The notes under the pieces: generated by a model
Told to the model about the DNA's origin: nothing
Databases searched by the model: none
What the model saw: only the letters and a program-made list of their open reading frames with translations
Source: a bacterium
GTDB taxonomy: Bacteria > Bacillota > Sulfobacillia > UBA995
Length of the DNA stretch: 64,000 nucleotides
Direction: 5' to 3'
Assembly: GCA_031082145.1 (NCBI GenBank)
Contig: JAVHLP010000006.1
Span: 101,764-165,763 of the forward strand
Shown: in pieces, positions 35,402 through 44,655 of the stretch
Layout of the letters: each line of letters starts with the position of its first letter
How positions within the stretch are numbered: position 1 is the first letter of the stretch
Program-made: the position numbers and the translations under genes

Positions 35402-35477
35402 GGGCCATTAGCTCATCAGGTAGAGCGGCGGTCTTTTAAACCGCGGGCGGAAGGTTCGAGTCCTTCATGGCCCACCA
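35402..35477 (+). tRNA. tRNA-Lys (TTT)
   Basis: gggccat...atggccc-acca, anticodon loop ctTTTaa. Confidence 0.95.
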
Positions 35478-35890: not shown

Positions 35891-37519
35891 CTAGCAGGGC
35901 CACGACACACATAGCTCACACCACTCCGACGCTCCTTCGACGCGATTCTGCTCCCGGAAGAAGTGTTCAAGCGTCTCACTCAACCGAGCGTCCCTAATGA
36001 GAACTGACCCGTCATCACCAATGGCGAACATCTCGGGAGTCAGATGCGTCTGGTGAGCCGATCGCGGTCCTTTGCCTGCTCTGGAGCACGCGGCCCGGGA
36101 GGGCTCTCGACCCTGACACACCATCTCCTTTCCTGACTCAGTATCATGGATGCGTCCGCTCGTGCTGAGAGCCGCTCCATTCCCTCTGATCAACCGAGCC
36201 ATCGCGCGCAAGACACCGGTCGATGGCTGGTAGGTTCCGAGCCTAGTTGACAGTGTCAACGCTGACGGGCCGTCACGGACGATCCACGACTTCTCGTCAA
36301 GAGCTTCGAGATAGTACGAGACGGCCTCTTCAGTCAGAGACAAGATGCGGGGCAGATCGTTGGTCCTTGTGCCACCGTCCATGGCGTCTAACACCCTCAC
36401 ACATGTAGCCCCCAGGGTATACACCAATGGTTCGTGTCGGGTATCCACGATGACTCCGCCCTGGCCGGTAGAGAAGTGAAAAAGGCCGGCAGAAGAATGG
36501 CGTGATCGCCAGGTGTTGACCGCGTGAACCAGATCCACAGCATACTCGGCAGAAGGCGCATTGACGTAGTCGAAGTCGAAGAAGTAGGCCAGTTCTTTCA
36601 CAACCTCCGGAGACAACCGGCCATAGACGAACGAATACGCAGGTTTTGGGCAGATAGCGTGTATGCCGAAGTCCGCGGCATTCTTGAAGAGAGGGCTGAA
36701 ACGGTCGAGCCTCACAGGATGCATGCCGAGTGGCGGTGGCAGATGGAGAAGCCGGCGCACCAACTGAGCGCATTTCACGGACTCTGAAGGGGCTTCGCCG
36801 GGGAAGCCCCACAGGAGATTCCAGTGAGCCAGAAGGCCATACTCCAGCATCCACTTGAGGCATTGCAGGTTCGTGATCAGCGTCGTTCCCTTTCGCATGA
36901 TTCTCAGGACTTGCGTTGAGAGGCTTTCGACACCGACTTGGAGACCCTTGACACCTGCTTCGGCTAGGGCCTGGACTTCGTCCTTCCGAAGGCTTGCCTT
37001 GACTTCATAGTGGATCTCGAAGTCTACCCCACGCTCCTTTAGTCTTGGGAACACCGACCCGGGGTAATTGGCGGGCATGATGTTGTCGGTAGCTGCGATC
37101 TCTCTAGTTAGATGGCCATAGTTGTCCCACAACTCGGCGATTTCACTGACGGCTCTCCCGACCGATTTCTGTCTGTGCTTCAGCTCGGCCCCGTTGAGGC
37201 CACAGAATACGCAGTTCTCGTGTTGGCCCCACCAGCACCCACGTGATCCTTCTTCCGGATCATCGGTCCATAGCCACGGCGAGAAGAGCCACTCACCCAG
37301 CAACCTGACCGGCGGGTCATCGGCAACGGAGCTATAGGCAACGGCTCCGATGCGGGCCGCCAGCATGATGTTGAGATACAGCACCCGGGATTCCCGACTG
37401 ACCCTTGATAATTCGGCCTGCAGGAGGCTGGCACCTAACGCAGGCCTGTTGGGTGACAGAAACGGAGTGTTCACGAAGACCACTTCGGGCAGTAGGCGCA
37501 GGTCCTTACGCTCGTGCAT
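35891..37519 (-). CDS. RiPP-maturation radical SAM protein 1-like enzyme, apparently lacking most of the cobalamin-binding domain
   Basis: VVFVNTPFLSPNRPALGASLLQAELSR...LLGEWLFSPWLW then GSRGCWWGQHENCVFCGLNG (Cx7Cx2C, the unusual Cys spacing of this family), FEIHYEVKASLRKDEVQALAEAGVKGLQVGVESLSTQVLRIMRKG, HWNLLWGFPGE, HPVRLDRFSPLF. C-terminal tail EWCELCVSWPC. Confidence 0.75.
   Translation of the reverse strand: MHERKDLRLLPEVVFVNTPFLSPNRPALGASLLQAELSRVSRESRVLYLNIMLAARIGAVAYSSVADDPPVRLLGEWLFSPWLWTDDPEEGSRGCWWGQHENCVFCGLNGAELKHRQKSVGRAVSEIAELWDNYGHLTREIAATDNIMPANYPGSVFPRLKERGVDFEIHYEVKASLRKDEVQALAEAGVKGLQVGVESLSTQVLRIMRKGTTLITNLQCLKWMLEYGLLAHWNLLWGFPGEAPSESVKCAQLVRRLLHLPPPLGMHPVRLDRFSPLFKNAADFGIHAICPKPAYSFVYGRLSPEVVKELAYFFDFDYVNAPSAEYAVDLVHAVNTWRSRHSSAGLFHFSTGQGGVIVDTRHEPLVYTLGATCVRVLDAMDGGTRTNDLPRILSLTEEAVSYYLEALDEKSWIVRDGPSALTLSTRLGTYQPSTGVLRAMARLIRGNGAALSTSGRIHDTESGKEMVCQGREPSRAACSRAGKGPRSAHQTHLTPEMFAIGDDGSVLIRDARLSETLEHFFREQNRVEGASEWCELCVSWPC
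37371..37442. repeat. 72-bp perfect direct repeat, copy 1 (inside the 5' part of the minus-strand radical SAM gene)
   Basis: ttgagatacagcacccgggattcccgactgacccttgataattcggcctgcaggaggctggcacctaacgca. Confidence 0.97.
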
Positions 37520-37754: not shown

Positions 37755-37810
37755 GCCCGCAAGGCCTCCGGCTTCCTCCGATGATGGAGCATCGACCGGA
37801 AAGCAGAACA

Positions 37811-37882
37811 TTGAGATACAGCACCCGGGATTCCCGACTGACCCTTGATAATTCGGCCTGCAGGAGGCTGGCACCTAACGCA
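37811..37882. repeat. 72-bp perfect direct repeat, copy 2 (between the two minus-strand radical SAM genes)
   Basis: Identical to 37371-37442, offset 440 bp; flanking sequences diverge immediately. Confidence 0.97.
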
Positions 37883-39059
37883 ATGGTACATAGATGCCCA
37901 GAACGCCTGGCCCGAGGGTCGGGAAGTAGGGATAGTTGGGGCCGCATGGCCGCAGAGCCAGCGCAAGGCTATGGCCGGCCCGATCGACTCCAACCGGGAT
38001 ATCCACTATTCTGTTACGCAACGCCTTCCTCACCAGGTCTGTCGCGTGTGCCCCCGAGATGACGATTTCATCGTTCACCCGGGTGATCGCGTCGCCTACC
38101 CTGAGACCGCTTATCCATGCCGGCGAGTTGCGCCCAACGCCAAGCACCTTCGCCCGGCTCAGGGGCTGTCTGTCCAACGCTGTTTCGAAGGCCGATGGGA
38201 GGATAAGGATTGGAGACTCCAACTCATATCGAAGAGGCGCCAGTCTTGCGGTCACAATGGCCCAGTGAGAGAGTGTATTGAAAGAGCCGGCCTGCGGTGC
38301 GTTGTACTTAGTGTAGCCCGGAAGGGATACAATGAGCCTCTCCGCTTCCGACTCATCTGCATAACGTAGGCAGTTTTCGATTTCCTCCAGAGGTATGGTC
38401 GGCCAGGGAACACAGCTGACGGCGAAGGGTATCTCGGCTTCGCGAAGGAGAGCAAGAGATCCCAGAGCCAACTCAGGATTTTGGTCTCCCATCAACTGAC
38501 TGCGGGTTGTTGGCCTGGTGCTGTTCATCGAGACCGTTATATGTACGGGGTTAAGAGACCCCAGCTTGCGGACTACGCTCTCGGTCAGAGCAATGCCGTT
38601 GGTCGTCAGCATCATCCATTCCGAGCTGCGGCTACGGATCTCCTGAAGCGCCTCCAAGCTCCTTGGATGGCTGAGGGCTTCATGAACCTGAGAGAACATG
38701 GGAAAGAGCATCCGCCCCTCGCGTTCGCGATAGCGGCTGACTCGGGTCAGGAAACGTGTGTAGCTGGTTGCAGCAGAGCCGGATGTTGCCCTCCAGTTAG
38801 GGGGGTTGCCCTTAAGATAGCAGAATGAGCACGCCGCATTACACGAACCGGCGAGTTCGTCCAAGAACGCCCCCGCGTTGAACCCTGGGGGCCGACGGCA
38901 TTCCCAGTGGCTAAGGTTCCGCAGTCTGAAGCCGGTGATATTGACCGGAGCACCATCGCTCTCAAGCTGAACGACGCCCAGGAGTGCCTCCAACATGCGT
39001 TTCATCGCGCCGATCCGGGGCTCCGCGAACGTAACCCGTCGAAGATCCTCGAAGTCCAT
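37875..39059 (-). CDS. radical SAM protein with C-terminal PDZ-like domain
   Basis: GSCNAACSFCYLKGNPPNW (CxxxCxxC), LTTNGIAL, HITVSMNSTRP, PDZ-like VLGVGRNSPAWISGLRVGDAITRVNDEIVISGAHATDLVRKALRN. ORF track start 39455 is likely too long; ATG 39059 follows a G-rich RBS. Confidence 0.75.
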   Translation of the reverse strand: MDFEDLRRVTFAEPRIGAMKRMLEALLGVVQLESDGAPVNITGFRLRNLSHWECRRPPGFNAGAFLDELAGSCNAACSFCYLKGNPPNWRATSGSAATSYTRFLTRVSRYREREGRMLFPMFSQVHEALSHPRSLEALQEIRSRSSEWMMLTTNGIALTESVVRKLGSLNPVHITVSMNSTRPTTRSQLMGDQNPELALGSLALLREAEIPFAVSCVPWPTIPLEEIENCLRYADESEAERLIVSLPGYTKYNAPQAGSFNTLSHWAIVTARLAPLRYELESPILILPSAFETALDRQPLSRAKVLGVGRNSPAWISGLRVGDAITRVNDEIVISGAHATDLVRKALRNRIVDIPVGVDRAGHSLALALRPCGPNYPYFPTLGPGVLGIYVPLR

Positions 39060-39189
39060 AGCCACGCTACCCCCCTTCCGCATGTGGGCAGTAGTGCCCT
39101 CAGTTGGGACACGAGACCCCAAGCAGGAGATGGGAAGAATGGGGAGAATTGGCACGTATGCACGACTCCTCTGCCGGGTGGGATTTGCA

Positions 39190-40543
39190 ATGGGCCGGCA
39201 CGTGTGGCGGAGGCTCGCTCCGGACACGGTCATCCTGTTTGACGACGAGACTCTTGCCCTTATTGAGGTAGACGATCTTACGGCCAAGATGCTGATGCAG
39301 GGCAGCCCAGAGGTTGCAGACAGAGTCACTGTGACCGATGAGATACGTGAGTCCCAAGAGGCCTTTGAAGGGCTTGTCCAGAGCGGGATTATCCTACTTG
39401 AGCATGAGACTCCTCCCGAGATCCAGCCGGTGATGAGCTTCCTCCTGATGAACATCTCCAGCCAATGCGATGGCCTGTCAGTACTGCTTCGCTGAGGGCG
39501 GAAGCTATGGCCAGACTCCCGGTCTGATGTCTGAGGAGGTGGCCCGGCGGGCCATAGACTTGTTGGCGGCTGCTCCGTACGAGGGAATGAAGCACATCGC
39601 CTTCTTTGGCGGTGAGCCGCTGATGAACATACCTATACTGGAGTTCATCCTGGCCTATGGCCGAGAAGTGATCGGAGATAAGACCAAGCTCGGCTTCATG
39701 GTTTCTACGAACGGCACGAAGCTCACAGAAACGGTAACAGATCTCCTCAGCCGGCACCATGTGTCAATACAGGTAAGCGTCGACGGCACGCGTGAACTCC
39801 AGAACCGCCTCAGACCTCTGAGAGGCAACGGCGACTCATTCAACGCCGTTGCGCGGAATCTGGACTCTGCAAGGAGGATCGCAGGCAACATACACGGTAG
39901 GGCAACCGTCACCAACCTCTGCCCCGATGCGCTGGATCTAACGGTTCAGCTGATGTCCCTTGGATTTGACTCGGTTAGCCTTCAGCCGGTTCACGGCTCC
40001 AGAACCCTCGAACTTGATGATACACAGATGACTCAATTTGTCGAAGGATATCGCATCATGGCCCGGCGCGGTCTTAGCAGGAAAGTGTCATGGCTGAAGG
40101 GATGCGTGGAGCGTGTGGCTAGGAGGGCCAGGGCAGAGCAGTTCTGCGGAGCTGGACTGCGTGGTTTGACCGTAGCTACTGACGGGAACTTCTACGTCTG
40201 TCACAGGCTGATCCCGCTGCCTGAGTTCAGAGTGGGAGATGTCCGGGACGGTGTGAACACAGAGAAGTTGGTCGACATCTTCAAGGGCAAGCAGGGTGTG
40301 GACGTTTCACTAGTGTGCACATCCTGCATGTTCCGCCATATGTGTGGAGGCGGCTGCTTGGCGGAGAACTTCCTTGAGAACGGGGATATCAGAGAGCCGT
40401 GGACAATGAGGTGCCTGCTCACCAAGGGTGTCTGTCAGGCAGCCCTTGATGCTTACCTCGATCAGCACTACTGCAACGAGAGCTTGGAGACTGCGCCGGA
40501 TGCCGAAGTGGCTGCTGCTGGGGGGGGTGATGACCCTGGCTAG
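39190..40543 (+). pseudogene. radical SAM/SPASM peptide maturase with N-terminal RRE-like region; reading frame broken at ~39466-39472
   Basis: Frame 1: MGRHVWRRLAPDTVILFDDETLALIEVDDLTAKML...VMSFLLMNISSQC; then frame 2: MACQYCFAEGG...FFGGEPLMN...STNGTKLTE...VSVDGT and SPASM CGAGLRGLTVATDGNFYVCHRLI...CTSCMFRHMCGGGCLAENF. Joining the frames restores CxxxCxxC. Confidence 0.8.
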
Positions 40544-40715
40544 AGTGGCCTTGCTAAACGGACAGCTCGACGGGCGTGAAGCATCGTCTGGTGGAGTAGA
40601 GCCGAACGGGTGCGTTGTCTGTGGCATAAATCTTGCCCCATGCTGGACTCATGTCTGCAACTACGTGTACGTGCCTTGCCCGTACTGCGGCGTGGACTGC
40701 AGGCCTGTGGAGTGA
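40530..40715 (+). CDS. candidate cysteine-rich RiPP precursor peptide (61 aa)
   Basis: MTLARVALLNGQLDGREASSGGVEPNGCVVCGINLAPCWTHVCNYVYVPCPYCGVDCRPVE; ATG overlaps the stop region of the SPASM gene (40541-40543); seven Cys in the last 34 residues. Confidence 0.5.
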   Translation: MTLARVALLNGQLDGREASSGGVEPNGCVVCGINLAPCWTHVCNYVYVPCPYCGVDCRPVE

Positions 40716-40737: not shown

Positions 40738-41208
40738 TTGCCAAGTGGTTCCATCAGGGAAGTCCTAACCCTCGGCCTTGACTCCGGAATACCGGACTCG
40801 GTACTCATGGAGGCCCTTGATTCAGTCGACCTCACCGCGAGGGTCATGTCCTTTCCAGGAGGGATTGACACCAGTCTGGGAGCCAACAACGTGGAACTCA
40901 GTGCGGGGGAGACCCAGAAGCTCTTACTTGCCCGGGCTGCGTTAGCGCACTATGACCTCCTGATCTTGGACGAAGCGCTGAGTTCACTGGATAGCGCCAC
41001 GGCTTTGATGATACTCAGGCGTCTTAAGGACACTTTCTGCCGTGGGAATCGGGGGGGCGTTCTGCTTGTTACCCATCGGGAGAGCGAGGTGGCCCTCATG
41101 GACGAGTACTACACTCTTGAGAACGGCGAGTTGAGGTCGGCCGAAACCCTGAAGCATCCTTGCGGGTCATCCGGGGGTGCGACGCAAGCGGAGGTGGCCG
41201 GAGAATGA
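40738..41208 (+). pseudogene. C-terminal fragment of an exporter-type ABC transporter ATPase (no TMD, no Walker A)
   Basis: PSGSIREVLTLGL...VMSFPGGIDTSLGANNVELSAGETQKLLLARAALAHYDLLILDEALSSLDSATALMI...GGVLLVTHRESEV: signature, Walker B and H-loop only; an in-frame stop lies just upstream. Confidence 0.75.
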
Positions 41209-41915
41209 ACCGGGACGGCCGGGATGAGGCCGGGAACGAGCTTCTTCGGGCAAAGGGTCTGGGCAAGCGATTCGGAGGGGCGTCGGACGGCTTCTGGATC
41301 TTCCGGCACCTGGATATGACTCTACGTCCGTCCGAGATGGTTTGCCTGTCTGGGCCGTCGGGCTGTGGTAAGACCACTCTGCTGGCTCTTCTCTCAGGTC
41401 TCGAGAAACCGACCGAGGGAACCGTCACTCTCATGGGGCATTCGCTCGAGACCATGTCGGAAGCCAGGGCTGCCGACGTCCGACGCAAGGCCATTGGCTT
41501 TGTCTTTCAGTTCTTCTATCTCCTCCCCAACCTCACGGTTCAGGAGAATATCGCGCTTCCTCTCATAGCCGCCGGCGAGGGGCGTACGGTGCTCTCCCGC
41601 GCCGCGGAGCTGGCGAGCGAACTGGGCCTCGTCGACCGGCTTAACCGCTATCCCCGCCAGCTCTCAGCCGGCGAGCAGCAAAGGGTGGCTCTGGCCCGGG
41701 CCATCATCTCCAGTCCCGCTATCGTCATGGCGGATGAACCGACGGGCAATCTGGATGCTTCCTCGGCCGACGTCGTGCTGTCGATCCTACGCCGCCAGAC
41801 TCAGGAAGGGCGGGCGGTGCTGATTGCCTCCCACAACCCCAAGGTTGTGGAGGTATCAGATCGCGTGATCGATCTCTCACAGGTCGCTGTCAGGGCGGAG
41901 GACTCCCGGCCATGA
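41205..41915 (+). CDS. ABC transporter ATP-binding protein (LolD/MacB-like)
   Basis: [87 protein letters not shown]. Confidence 0.93.
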
Positions 41916-44416
41916 TGCGGTGGACAGCACGCCTGGTGATCAGCGGCCTCAAGTCGGACGCCCGGTGGCTTGTGCCCATTGCGATCACGGTCAGCTTCGC
42001 ACTGGCGACAGTTGTTCCCGTGCAGGCTCTCCGCGATGCCGCCACCGGGTTTGATCGGTATACGGCCGGCGTCCTCGGGGCGGACCTCAGGGTGAATGTT
42101 GGAGCGTCACCGGGCGCGGACCAGACAGGGTTGCTTGTCGCCTCCATCCGCGATATGGGGGCGGAGGTAAGCTGGATTGTCGAAATGGGTGCACCGGTCT
42201 CGAGCGAGTCACGGGAAGCGGCCGTCCGAGCGGTGGTGGTGCTGGAAGGCCAATACCCCCTGTACGGGGGAGAGCTTTGGTCTCGCCATCCGGGAGAGGC
42301 GTTGCGGCACGGAGTCGCGCTGTCGATCAACGCATGCCGGGCCTTGGGAGTCGCAGAGGGCGATATCGTAACAGCCTTCGGTAGGGCCCTTCCGGTGGCG
42401 GCTGGTTTTCCGGAGAACTTGCTGACGCTAGCGTCTTCCGGGGATGCCGGAACGATGGTCGTCTCCGGCGAGATGCTGTCTCCTGAAGCGGCGTCTCTGT
42501 TGCGGATGGGCGGGGGAATCCTGGCGGTCGGCCTACCCTCAGACGTGGACGCTTCGGACATGATCCAGAAGGTCCTGGTGGAAGCCTTCGGCCGAGAGAA
42601 CATCCTCCTTCGCCAGGACGTGGCTCCGGTCATCGAGGTGGGCATGACTCGGCTGAAGCAGGTGTTTCTCTGGTGCGCGCTGCTGATTATCTTCATCTGC
42701 TCCTTCGGGCTTGCTTTCGGGGTCGAGGACTACGCCAACAGCAAGGCCGACGAAATCGCGATGCTGAAGGTCCTGGGCTTCGCGACGCCGCTCGTGGGGC
42801 TGGTAGTGGTCCTGAGACTCGTCATTGCCGGATTGGCCGGAGGTGTTCTCGCCACCGGACTGGGCTCTCTGATGAACAGGGCCACGATGACCGCCGCAGG
42901 TACCCGGGCGGCTGACATCGCCGATCTGATGAAGCTGTCCGGTTTTCCCCTTGAGTTCCTGGCCTTTAGTACACTGGCCATCCTGGCTTTCGGCGGCTTC
43001 CCGCTCCTCGTGCGTCTTGCCGAAAGACCACACCGGGTTCTCTGGAGCAAGATGAGGGGTTTCCCGCTGGAGGCCAGAACAAGGGCGGGGGTGGGGTCTC
43101 TCGTCAGTACTCTGGTGATGGCTGTTCCCGTCATGCTGGGCCTCACCCGCTGGTACGCCGGACCGGCAGACACGGCCGCCTTCGGTTCGGTTCTCGTTCT
43201 GGGTGCGGGATTGCTGGTGCTCCTGGTGGTTGTCATCGTCTTGAAGCTCATCGGACTGGTCGGCAACCAACTCCCGGTGAGTCTCAGGTGGCCCTTTACC
43301 TACCTCCGAACCGGGGTGGGCCGGATCATAGCTTCCACCACCGCCGTAGCATTCGCCCTGGTAGTCGGAACCGGGGCGCTTGTCCTGGACAAGACCATCA
43401 ACTGGGAGCTTCAGGCGGCTGTTCGCAAGCAGGTGCCTTTCAGTGTGTGCGTTCTCGCGGAGCATGGGTCCCTTTCGCCATCGGTCGAACGGGGGATTGC
43501 GGAGCAGATCTCCGTGATGGAGGGGGTGGACTACTCAGCTTACTGCGACGTCGGATACGCCTTCTTCGGACCTTCCGCCACTCAGCTCCGCCCCAGAGCC
43601 GTGCTTATCAAAGCGGTCGAGATTGAGGACTGCGCCCTGTTCGGTTCGATTCTCGCCGATAACATGCCTGCTGCTGTCGACCCGGACGTTGTTCCCTGCT
43701 CCCTGTGGGAGGAGAACACAAGGAGTAAGGCGACGGGTCGGCGGTTGACCCTGGCCCTGGGTTCGAGCTGGACATCTGGTCCGCATGGGGATCCGTTTGA
43801 AGCGGTCGTCGTGGGCGTAGACCCGCGACCGGGGCTGAGGGTGGGTCTAAACGCGCCTTTGACCGTGCCTGCCGGCACCCTGGATATTCCGGCCATTCGG
43901 TTTCTCGGGGTCAGGGCAGACCCTGCATTCACCCCGAGTGTGACGACTGCGCTGAAATCCTTCTGGCCGGAGGCTGAGGTTCATGACTTCGGGGCCATCG
44001 AGGTGATGCTCAGAAGCGCGGCGGAGGAACTCGCCTTCCTTTGGTGGGCAACGGCTCTCTTCGCCCTGATGGTAAGCGTGGTCATATTCATCACTACGTC
44101 TTCCGTGGCCCGCATCGTGCGCTCGTTCTCTCTGGCGCTTCTTCGCGTTCTCGGTATCACCGGCTGGCGGCTCGTGATGGGGCCTTACTTCGAAGCCCTA
44201 ACCCAGGGTGTAGTATCGGGGCTGGTTGCAGGGTGTATAGCCCATGTTCTGGTATCTCGAGGCTTTGCCCTGTTCTTCGCGGTCAGCCTGCCCTCCAACT
44301 GGGTCGCCCCCGCGCTGGCGGTGGCCGTGTCAGTCACCATTTCCCTTGTTCTTCAGATCTGGTTTCTGCGGCGCGACCTGCGGCGGGCACCGCTGGAGGT
44401 CCTCCGCTCGGAGTGA
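41912..44416 (+). CDS. FtsX-like ABC transporter permease
   Basis: 834 aa, overlapping the ATPase stop; multiple TM segments in two FtsX-like blocks (LLIIFICSFGLAFGVEDYANSKADEIAMLKVLGF; ATALFALMVSVVIFITTSSVARIVRSFSLALLRVLGI). Confidence 0.85.
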   Translation: MMRWTARLVISGLKSDARWLVPIAITVSFALATVVPVQALRDAATGFDRYTAGVLGADLRVNVGASPGADQTGLLVASIRDMGAEVSWIVEMGAPVSSESREAAVRAVVVLEGQYPLYGGELWSRHPGEALRHGVALSINACRALGVAEGDIVTAFGRALPVAAGFPENLLTLASSGDAGTMVVSGEMLSPEAASLLRMGGGILAVGLPSDVDASDMIQKVLVEAFGRENILLRQDVAPVIEVGMTRLKQVFLWCALLIIFICSFGLAFGVEDYANSKADEIAMLKVLGFATPLVGLVVVLRLVIAGLAGGVLATGLGSLMNRATMTAAGTRAADIADLMKLSGFPLEFLAFSTLAILAFGGFPLLVRLAERPHRVLWSKMRGFPLEARTRAGVGSLVSTLVMAVPVMLGLTRWYAGPADTAAFGSVLVLGAGLLVLLVVVIVLKLIGLVGNQLPVSLRWPFTYLRTGVGRIIASTTAVAFALVVGTGALVLDKTINWELQAAVRKQVPFSVCVLAEHGSLSPSVERGIAEQISVMEGVDYSAYCDVGYAFFGPSATQLRPRAVLIKAVEIEDCALFGSILADNMPAAVDPDVVPCSLWEENTRSKATGRRLTLALGSSWTSGPHGDPFEAVVVGVDPRPGLRVGLNAPLTVPAGTLDIPAIRFLGVRADPAFTPSVTTALKSFWPEAEVHDFGAIEVMLRSAAEELAFLWWATALFALMVSVVIFITTSSVARIVRSFSLALLRVLGITGWRLVMGPYFEALTQGVVSGLVAGCIAHVLVSRGFALFFAVSLPSNWVAPALAVAVSVTISLVLQIWFLRRDLRRAPLEVLRSE

Positions 44417-44569: not shown

Positions 44570-44655
44570 GCGGGCGTGGCGGAACGGCAGACGCGCTAGA
44601 CTTAGGATCTAGTGGGGCTTAACCCGTGGGAGTTCGAATCTCCCCGCCCGCACCA
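44570..44655 (+). tRNA. tRNA-Leu (TAG)
   Basis: gcgggcg...cgcccgc-acca, long variable arm, anticodon loop ctTAGga, GTTCGAATC T-loop. Confidence 0.95.

Follow-up and report, generated by a model that had tools for sequence, protein, structure and literature searches.

The locus examined here raises the question of whether a 61-residue, seven-cysteine peptide encoded at the end of a radical-SAM maturase gene is the precursor of a modified peptide and, if so, of what kind of product, and whether that product can still be made in this bacterium. Our analysis of the window (the whole 64-kb stretch of DNA under study) and of related loci indicates that the peptide very probably is such a precursor, a member of a small undescribed family, preserved intact in a cluster that looks to be decaying. 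Other members of the family occur in a few further genomes of this phylum, nearly always encoded immediately downstream of a distinct radical-SAM maturase.

An earlier note on this DNA had called the open reading frame (ORF), and on re-reading its sequence, coordinates and cysteine positions and spacing are correct: the cysteines fall at residues 28, 31, 38, 43, 50, 53 and 57 (x2-x6-x4-x6-x2-x3), and the ATG at 40530 precedes the stop codon of the SPASM gene (TAG, 40541-40543), giving the overlap that the note had proposed, 14 nt in length. Read mechanically, the ORF may open upstream at 40428 (GTG, 95 aa); comparison with the relatives described below supports a predicted start at or near 40530. 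This is the sole ORF of 25-150 aa in the window with at least six cysteines in its last 45 residues. Markov-random 64-kb sequences contain on average 0.08 ORFs with at least seven cysteines in the last 35 residues, or about one per twelve windows, so cysteine density by itself is suggestive of a gene and not decisive. By codon score, in-frame controls give 0.38 +/- 0.18 and out-of-frame controls -0.69 +/- 0.20; this frame, at -0.11, is the best of the six and intermediate, midway between the two.

The peptide lies on an island bounded by a tRNA array, the last member of which is a tRNA-Lys (35402-35477), and by a tRNA-Leu (44570-44655). Along the island, a rSAM_ocin_1-type RiPP C-methyltransferase and a radical-SAM/PDZ gene on the reverse strand are followed on the forward strand by the SPASM maturase, the peptide, an ABC-exporter fragment, a LolD/MacB-type ATPase and a large permease (Table 1), and this gene content marks it as a RiPP-type island. 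The LolD/MacB-type ATPase is possibly part of an alternative exporter, and the permease, from its position, is presumed to be its FtsX-like partner. The radical-SAM protein with a C-terminal PDZ domain (37875-39455, reverse strand) is divergent to the SPASM maturase and scores above the cut-off of no NCBIfam family. The island holds no Rce1/CPBP or S41 protease of the kind seen beside the relatives.

Table 1. Features of the island around the seven-cysteine peptide (window coordinates).
Feature	Coordinates	Strand	Remarks
RiPP radical-SAM C-methyltransferase (TIGR03975, B12-type)	35891..37519	-	Model positions 264-605 of 606 at residues 89-424
Maturase N-terminal, recognition-domain-like part, in another frame	39190..39468	+	Matches the G473 maturase N-terminus (E 7e-4); gene-like codon score
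SPASM radical-SAM maturase, main part (rSAM core and SPASM domain)	39470..40543	+	
Seven-cysteine precursor peptide	40530..40715	+	Leader at about 1-26 (motif RVALLN), core at 28-61; resembles the G473 peptide, leader motif common with six other peptides
ABC exporter remnant	40738..41208	+	C-terminal end of the ATPase domain only, without Walker A
LolD/MacB-type ABC ATPase	41160..41915	+	Apparently intact
Large permease	41912..44416	+	No Pfam or NCBIfam match

In a maturase tree, the window maturase groups with those of four other genomes (G032, G020, G473 and G294) in a nine-row clade (100/99), apart from 24 SCIFF-associated maturases; two of the rows, those of the window and of G032, are incomplete sequences on long branches, which leaves their placement relative to each other unsure. 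Search scores set the clade apart as well, its members giving E values of 1e-103 to 1e-218 and the next genes 1e-98 and weaker. SCIFF maturases are widespread, and the clade maturases, which score above this background, occur in few genomes. The models that score best on the clade are those of the PapB, SCIFF, Nif11 and QhpD maturases, none of which reaches its curated cut-off, and the nearest solved structure is 5wgg (E 2e-89), which we take to be CteB. The closest maturase by tree, that of G032 (locus L033, 8582-9562), is without the N-terminal third of its sequence and is immediately followed by a CPBP protease gene; no precursor is visible at that locus. Scanning genome contigs with the maturase query returned one SCIFF-type locus. 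A literature search, which covered mostly open-access text and in which free text cannot match motifs, returned no description of the maturase clade or of the leader motif. As a separate observation, a 24-kb Paraclostridium bifermentans plasmid (CP124692.1, L140) carries a maturase homologue (30%), unannotated, that immediately adjoins an ABC exporter gene.

The placement of a precursor beside a SPASM maturase, as first read in the window, recurs in three other genomes, where cysteine-rich ORFs (about 54-84 aa) lie downstream of clade maturases (G020, L034; G473, L084; G294, L085 and L097) and in several cases have good ribosome-binding sites. The G020 peptide begins MVKFQLLNKAKQLPRSACLLADVCGVD..., the G473 peptide reads ...VFVKIVLINGQNAPRKAQIEPEGDINILLCGTNVFGC...PPPCPHCQTGGVDVAPKLPR, and G294 encodes four peptides (e.g. 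MPRVLFLNDSSSIPDP...), one of them apart from any maturase in the stretch read. Precursors occur in four genomes only, that of the window included, and this small number counts against the reading. A fifth G294 maturase (contig C101, L086) has no cysteine-rich ORF directly downstream. The G294 loci (L085, L086 and L097) comprise several maturase-precursor modules with S41 peptidases and divergent cysteine-rich cores, and one of their maturases is frame-broken.

What unites the seven peptides is the leader. The N-terminal half had been described as leader-like, and the comparison bears this out, since all seven have a hydrophobic-Asn stretch there that ends in Leu-Asn or Ile-Asn, the Asn being invariant (7/7) and its role in RRE binding putative. 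A regular expression for this leader, combined with at least four cysteines, picks family members only (six of the seven) among all larger loci and the window. The window and G473 peptides also align end to end (BLASTP E = 3e-4 over 79 columns), with LNGQ or INGQ in the leader followed by CG-[IT]-N-[LV], PCP-[YH]-C and GVD; when the cysteines are held fixed and the other residues shuffled, this similarity has p = 0.001 (local) and 0.0005 (global), and the G473 and G020 peptides give p = 0.0003 in the shuffle test. Against the G294 peptides, the window peptide is not significantly similar beyond leader motif and position (p 0.13-0.74). The related peptides keep the leader, are Gly-rich and vary in cysteine number and spacing, so the exact spacing that had been put forward as a search pattern is not conserved; it is the leader and CG-x-N ... 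PCP-x-C ... GVD that recur in the closest relative. The shared leader motif and the end-to-end G473 alignment point to a real precursor.

The neighbourhoods agree with this reading. G020 shares with the window the order maturase-precursor-ABC gene, and the relatives' neighbours include ABC exporters (G020, G294 and G032), Rce1/CPBP membrane proteases (G020, G032 and G473) and S41 peptidases (G294), exporter and protease being the usual RiPP kit; G473 has two large ABC-like ORFs nearby, as candidate exporters. The family thus combines what is looked for in RiPP precursors, namely a short ORF beside a maturase, a conserved leader, a variable core and recurring neighbours.

When 61 relatives and 154 genomes of the class were searched with the window peptide, together with viral contigs, plasmids and phages, no close homologue emerged and all matches were chance ones, the two best (L023 and L024) both lying in unrelated loci. 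Peptide profiles A1 and A3 found no new members and are weak, A3 missing even the window peptide itself at E 0.01. The window peptide has no Pfam, NCBIfam or PHROGs match, and the suggestion that its core could represent a new family has held up; no model was hit by any of the family peptides compared, five with NCBIfam, three with Pfam and four with PHROGs.

Three readings would deny the peptide its role as a precursor. The ORF could be a chance open frame in intergenic DNA that decayed after loss of the front of the exporter, and the decay around it, the intermediate codon score and the chance rate of about 0.08 per 64 kb are all compatible with this. We nevertheless consider it improbable, given that the G473 peptide is similar from end to end with matching start, leader and C-terminus, which argues strongly against chance, that the same position after the maturase is occupied in three other genomes, and that the frame has the best codon score of six. 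A small metal-binding protein of zinc-ribbon or rubredoxin-like type, to which we assign a very low probability, is evoked by CVVCG and CPYCG, which look like two zinc knuckles (C28-x2-C31 ... C50-x2-C53, a fit by eye with no tool result behind it); against it, the related peptides are Gly-rich and differ in cysteine number and spacing while keeping the leader, and the position next to a SPASM maturase recurs. Neither Pfam nor NCBIfam recognises it as such, and AlphaFold gives it no fold (pLDDT 48, from a single sequence and hence uninformative). The 61 residues could, lastly, be a C-terminal extension of the maturase reached by slippage in the G8 run at 40520-40527, a homopolymer at the gene boundary where the two frames are one base apart; this is scarcely credible, for in the intact relatives the maturase stops at most some 10-25 residues from this point and is followed by a separate ORF that starts with its own ribosome-binding site.

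Whether the precursor is still processed here is a different matter. The earlier note was right about the precursor, and it missed the apparent breakage of the maturase, the exporter and the neighbouring radical-SAM gene. Four lesions can be made out. The two maturase parts are in different frames, the break falling inside the CxxxCxxC motif after its first cysteine, and the match to the G473 maturase N-terminus adjoins the main part at residues 120/122. Programmed frameshifting was considered as a rescue and rejected: reading from the first cysteine straight into the second frame shortens CxxxCxxC by one residue. Only the last ~140 aa of the ABC exporter are left, with homology beginning 17 nt past the peptide stop. 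The rSAM_ocin_1 gene matches its model over the best stretch given in Table 1 plus a second, shorter one, and seems, judging from this alignment, to be missing a large part of the N-terminal B12-domain region through an internal deletion; an 81-nt near-copy of the start of this gene lies nearby (37802-37882).

With the genome assembly in 34 contigs, the maturase break may be an assembly error, and the peptide could be live and modified here, either because the break is such an error or because modification occurs in trans. The precursor and both maturase halves keep their coding character and the maturase break is one small lesion in a multi-contig assembly, which makes this a possibility to be kept in view, if a doubtful one: the truncated exporter and the apparent deletion in rSAM_ocin_1 represent lesions that are larger and independent, and the search of the genome turned up no second clade maturase. 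Its only two other maturase homologues by this search, on contig C33, are distant (31% and 27%), and no precursor of SCIFF or LN-leader type was found near the SPASM-type radical-SAM genes there (L032). Several independent lesions favour real decay over assembly error. The locus is thus probably a decaying relic in which the precursor is intact, the maturase is frame-broken in its catalytic motif and the exporter is mostly deleted. Barring assembly error, the frame break and the truncation leave this genome without a functional cognate maturase and exporter; because of these lesions, product formation here is doubtful and the window peptide may never be modified. Taken as a whole, a genuine RiPP precursor with a leader-binding step and a thioether core, in a cluster that is now probably a decaying relic, is the explanation we consider best and likely to be correct.

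In the proposed mechanism, the adjacent SPASM maturase would use its N-terminal recognition domain to bind the peptide at the RVALLN leader segment and would join some core cysteines to nearby acceptors by thioether bonds, in the manner of PapB on PapA. Candidate crosslinks are C53-GV-D56, C57-RPV-E61 and C31-GI-N34. In complete clusters, leader removal would fall to an Rce1/CPBP or S41 protease and secretion of the product to the ABC exporter. The minimal substrate form of PapA, which we take to be LKQINVIAGVKEPIRAYGCSANDA, has a leader (LKQIN...) that likewise presents a hydrophobic-Asn pair. The m/z computed for this sequence, 844.1197, equals the value in PMC9413430. PapB joins Cys to Asp or Glu, tolerating zero to six residues between them, and a conserved leader Asn has been proposed as needed for RRE binding (PMC9413430). 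In the seven cores taken together, Asp at one to three residues past a Cys (CX1-3D) is mildly enriched (p = 0.02). Non-alpha thioether bonds would therefore be the most likely chemistry, as far as can be inferred. More tentatively, and with less expectation of being right than wrong, the seven peptides could be the first members of a separate RiPP class, defined by a divergent SPASM clade, a short hydrophobic-Asn leader that guides it and an uncharacterised pattern of multiple crosslinks in fast-varying Cys/Gly-rich cores.

The precursor and its maturase form a pair that can be searched for and that current NCBIfam and Pfam models do not cover. The intact copies in G473, G020 and G294 provide ready test systems for the choice of cysteine acceptors by SPASM enzymes that work with a minimal leader; in the window, a RiPP cluster can be seen that is apparently decaying around an intact precursor.

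Among known systems, the Nif11-type peptides with rSAM_nif11 (TIGR04064) and QhpD (TIGR03906) have homologous maturases (119-216 bits), but the scores are far under the cut-offs, and the window peptide, having no NCBIfam or Pfam match, carries no recognised Nif11 leader. The SCIFF systems (CteA/CteB, Tte1186) likewise pair a small cysteine-rich precursor with a homologous rSAM-SPASM enzyme. The earlier note had already set the peptide apart from SCIFF, and we concur: the maturase belongs to a separate clade and its window fragment scores 171 bits against TIGR03974, far under the cut-off of 425 (relatives 151-238). In addition, the window peptide has a different leader, lacks the core C-x2-[ST]-C-Q-[ST]-A-C-K-[ST]-S-C of the SCIFF peptides beside relatives' maturases, with which it was compared, and is encoded downstream of its maturase, whereas the SCIFF precursor is upstream. 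The ranthipeptide system PapA/PapB (freyrasin, Paenibacillus polymyxa) is alike in its adjacent precursor gene, in the hydrophobic-Asn pair of an otherwise dissimilar N-terminal leader and in acidic residues after Cys. The PapB model NF047865 also matches the SPASM maturases, with 206 bits for the window fragment and 187-247 for the relatives, under the cut-off of 340 even where these are full-length. The PapA core carries six CX3D repeats, whereas the window core has seven cysteines with one CX3E and one CX2D and does not form such a repeat. Judged on sequence, the family is neither SCIFF nor, by curated score, PapA/PapB proper, and its product is probably a PapA/ranthipeptide-like thioether peptide with an undescribed core.
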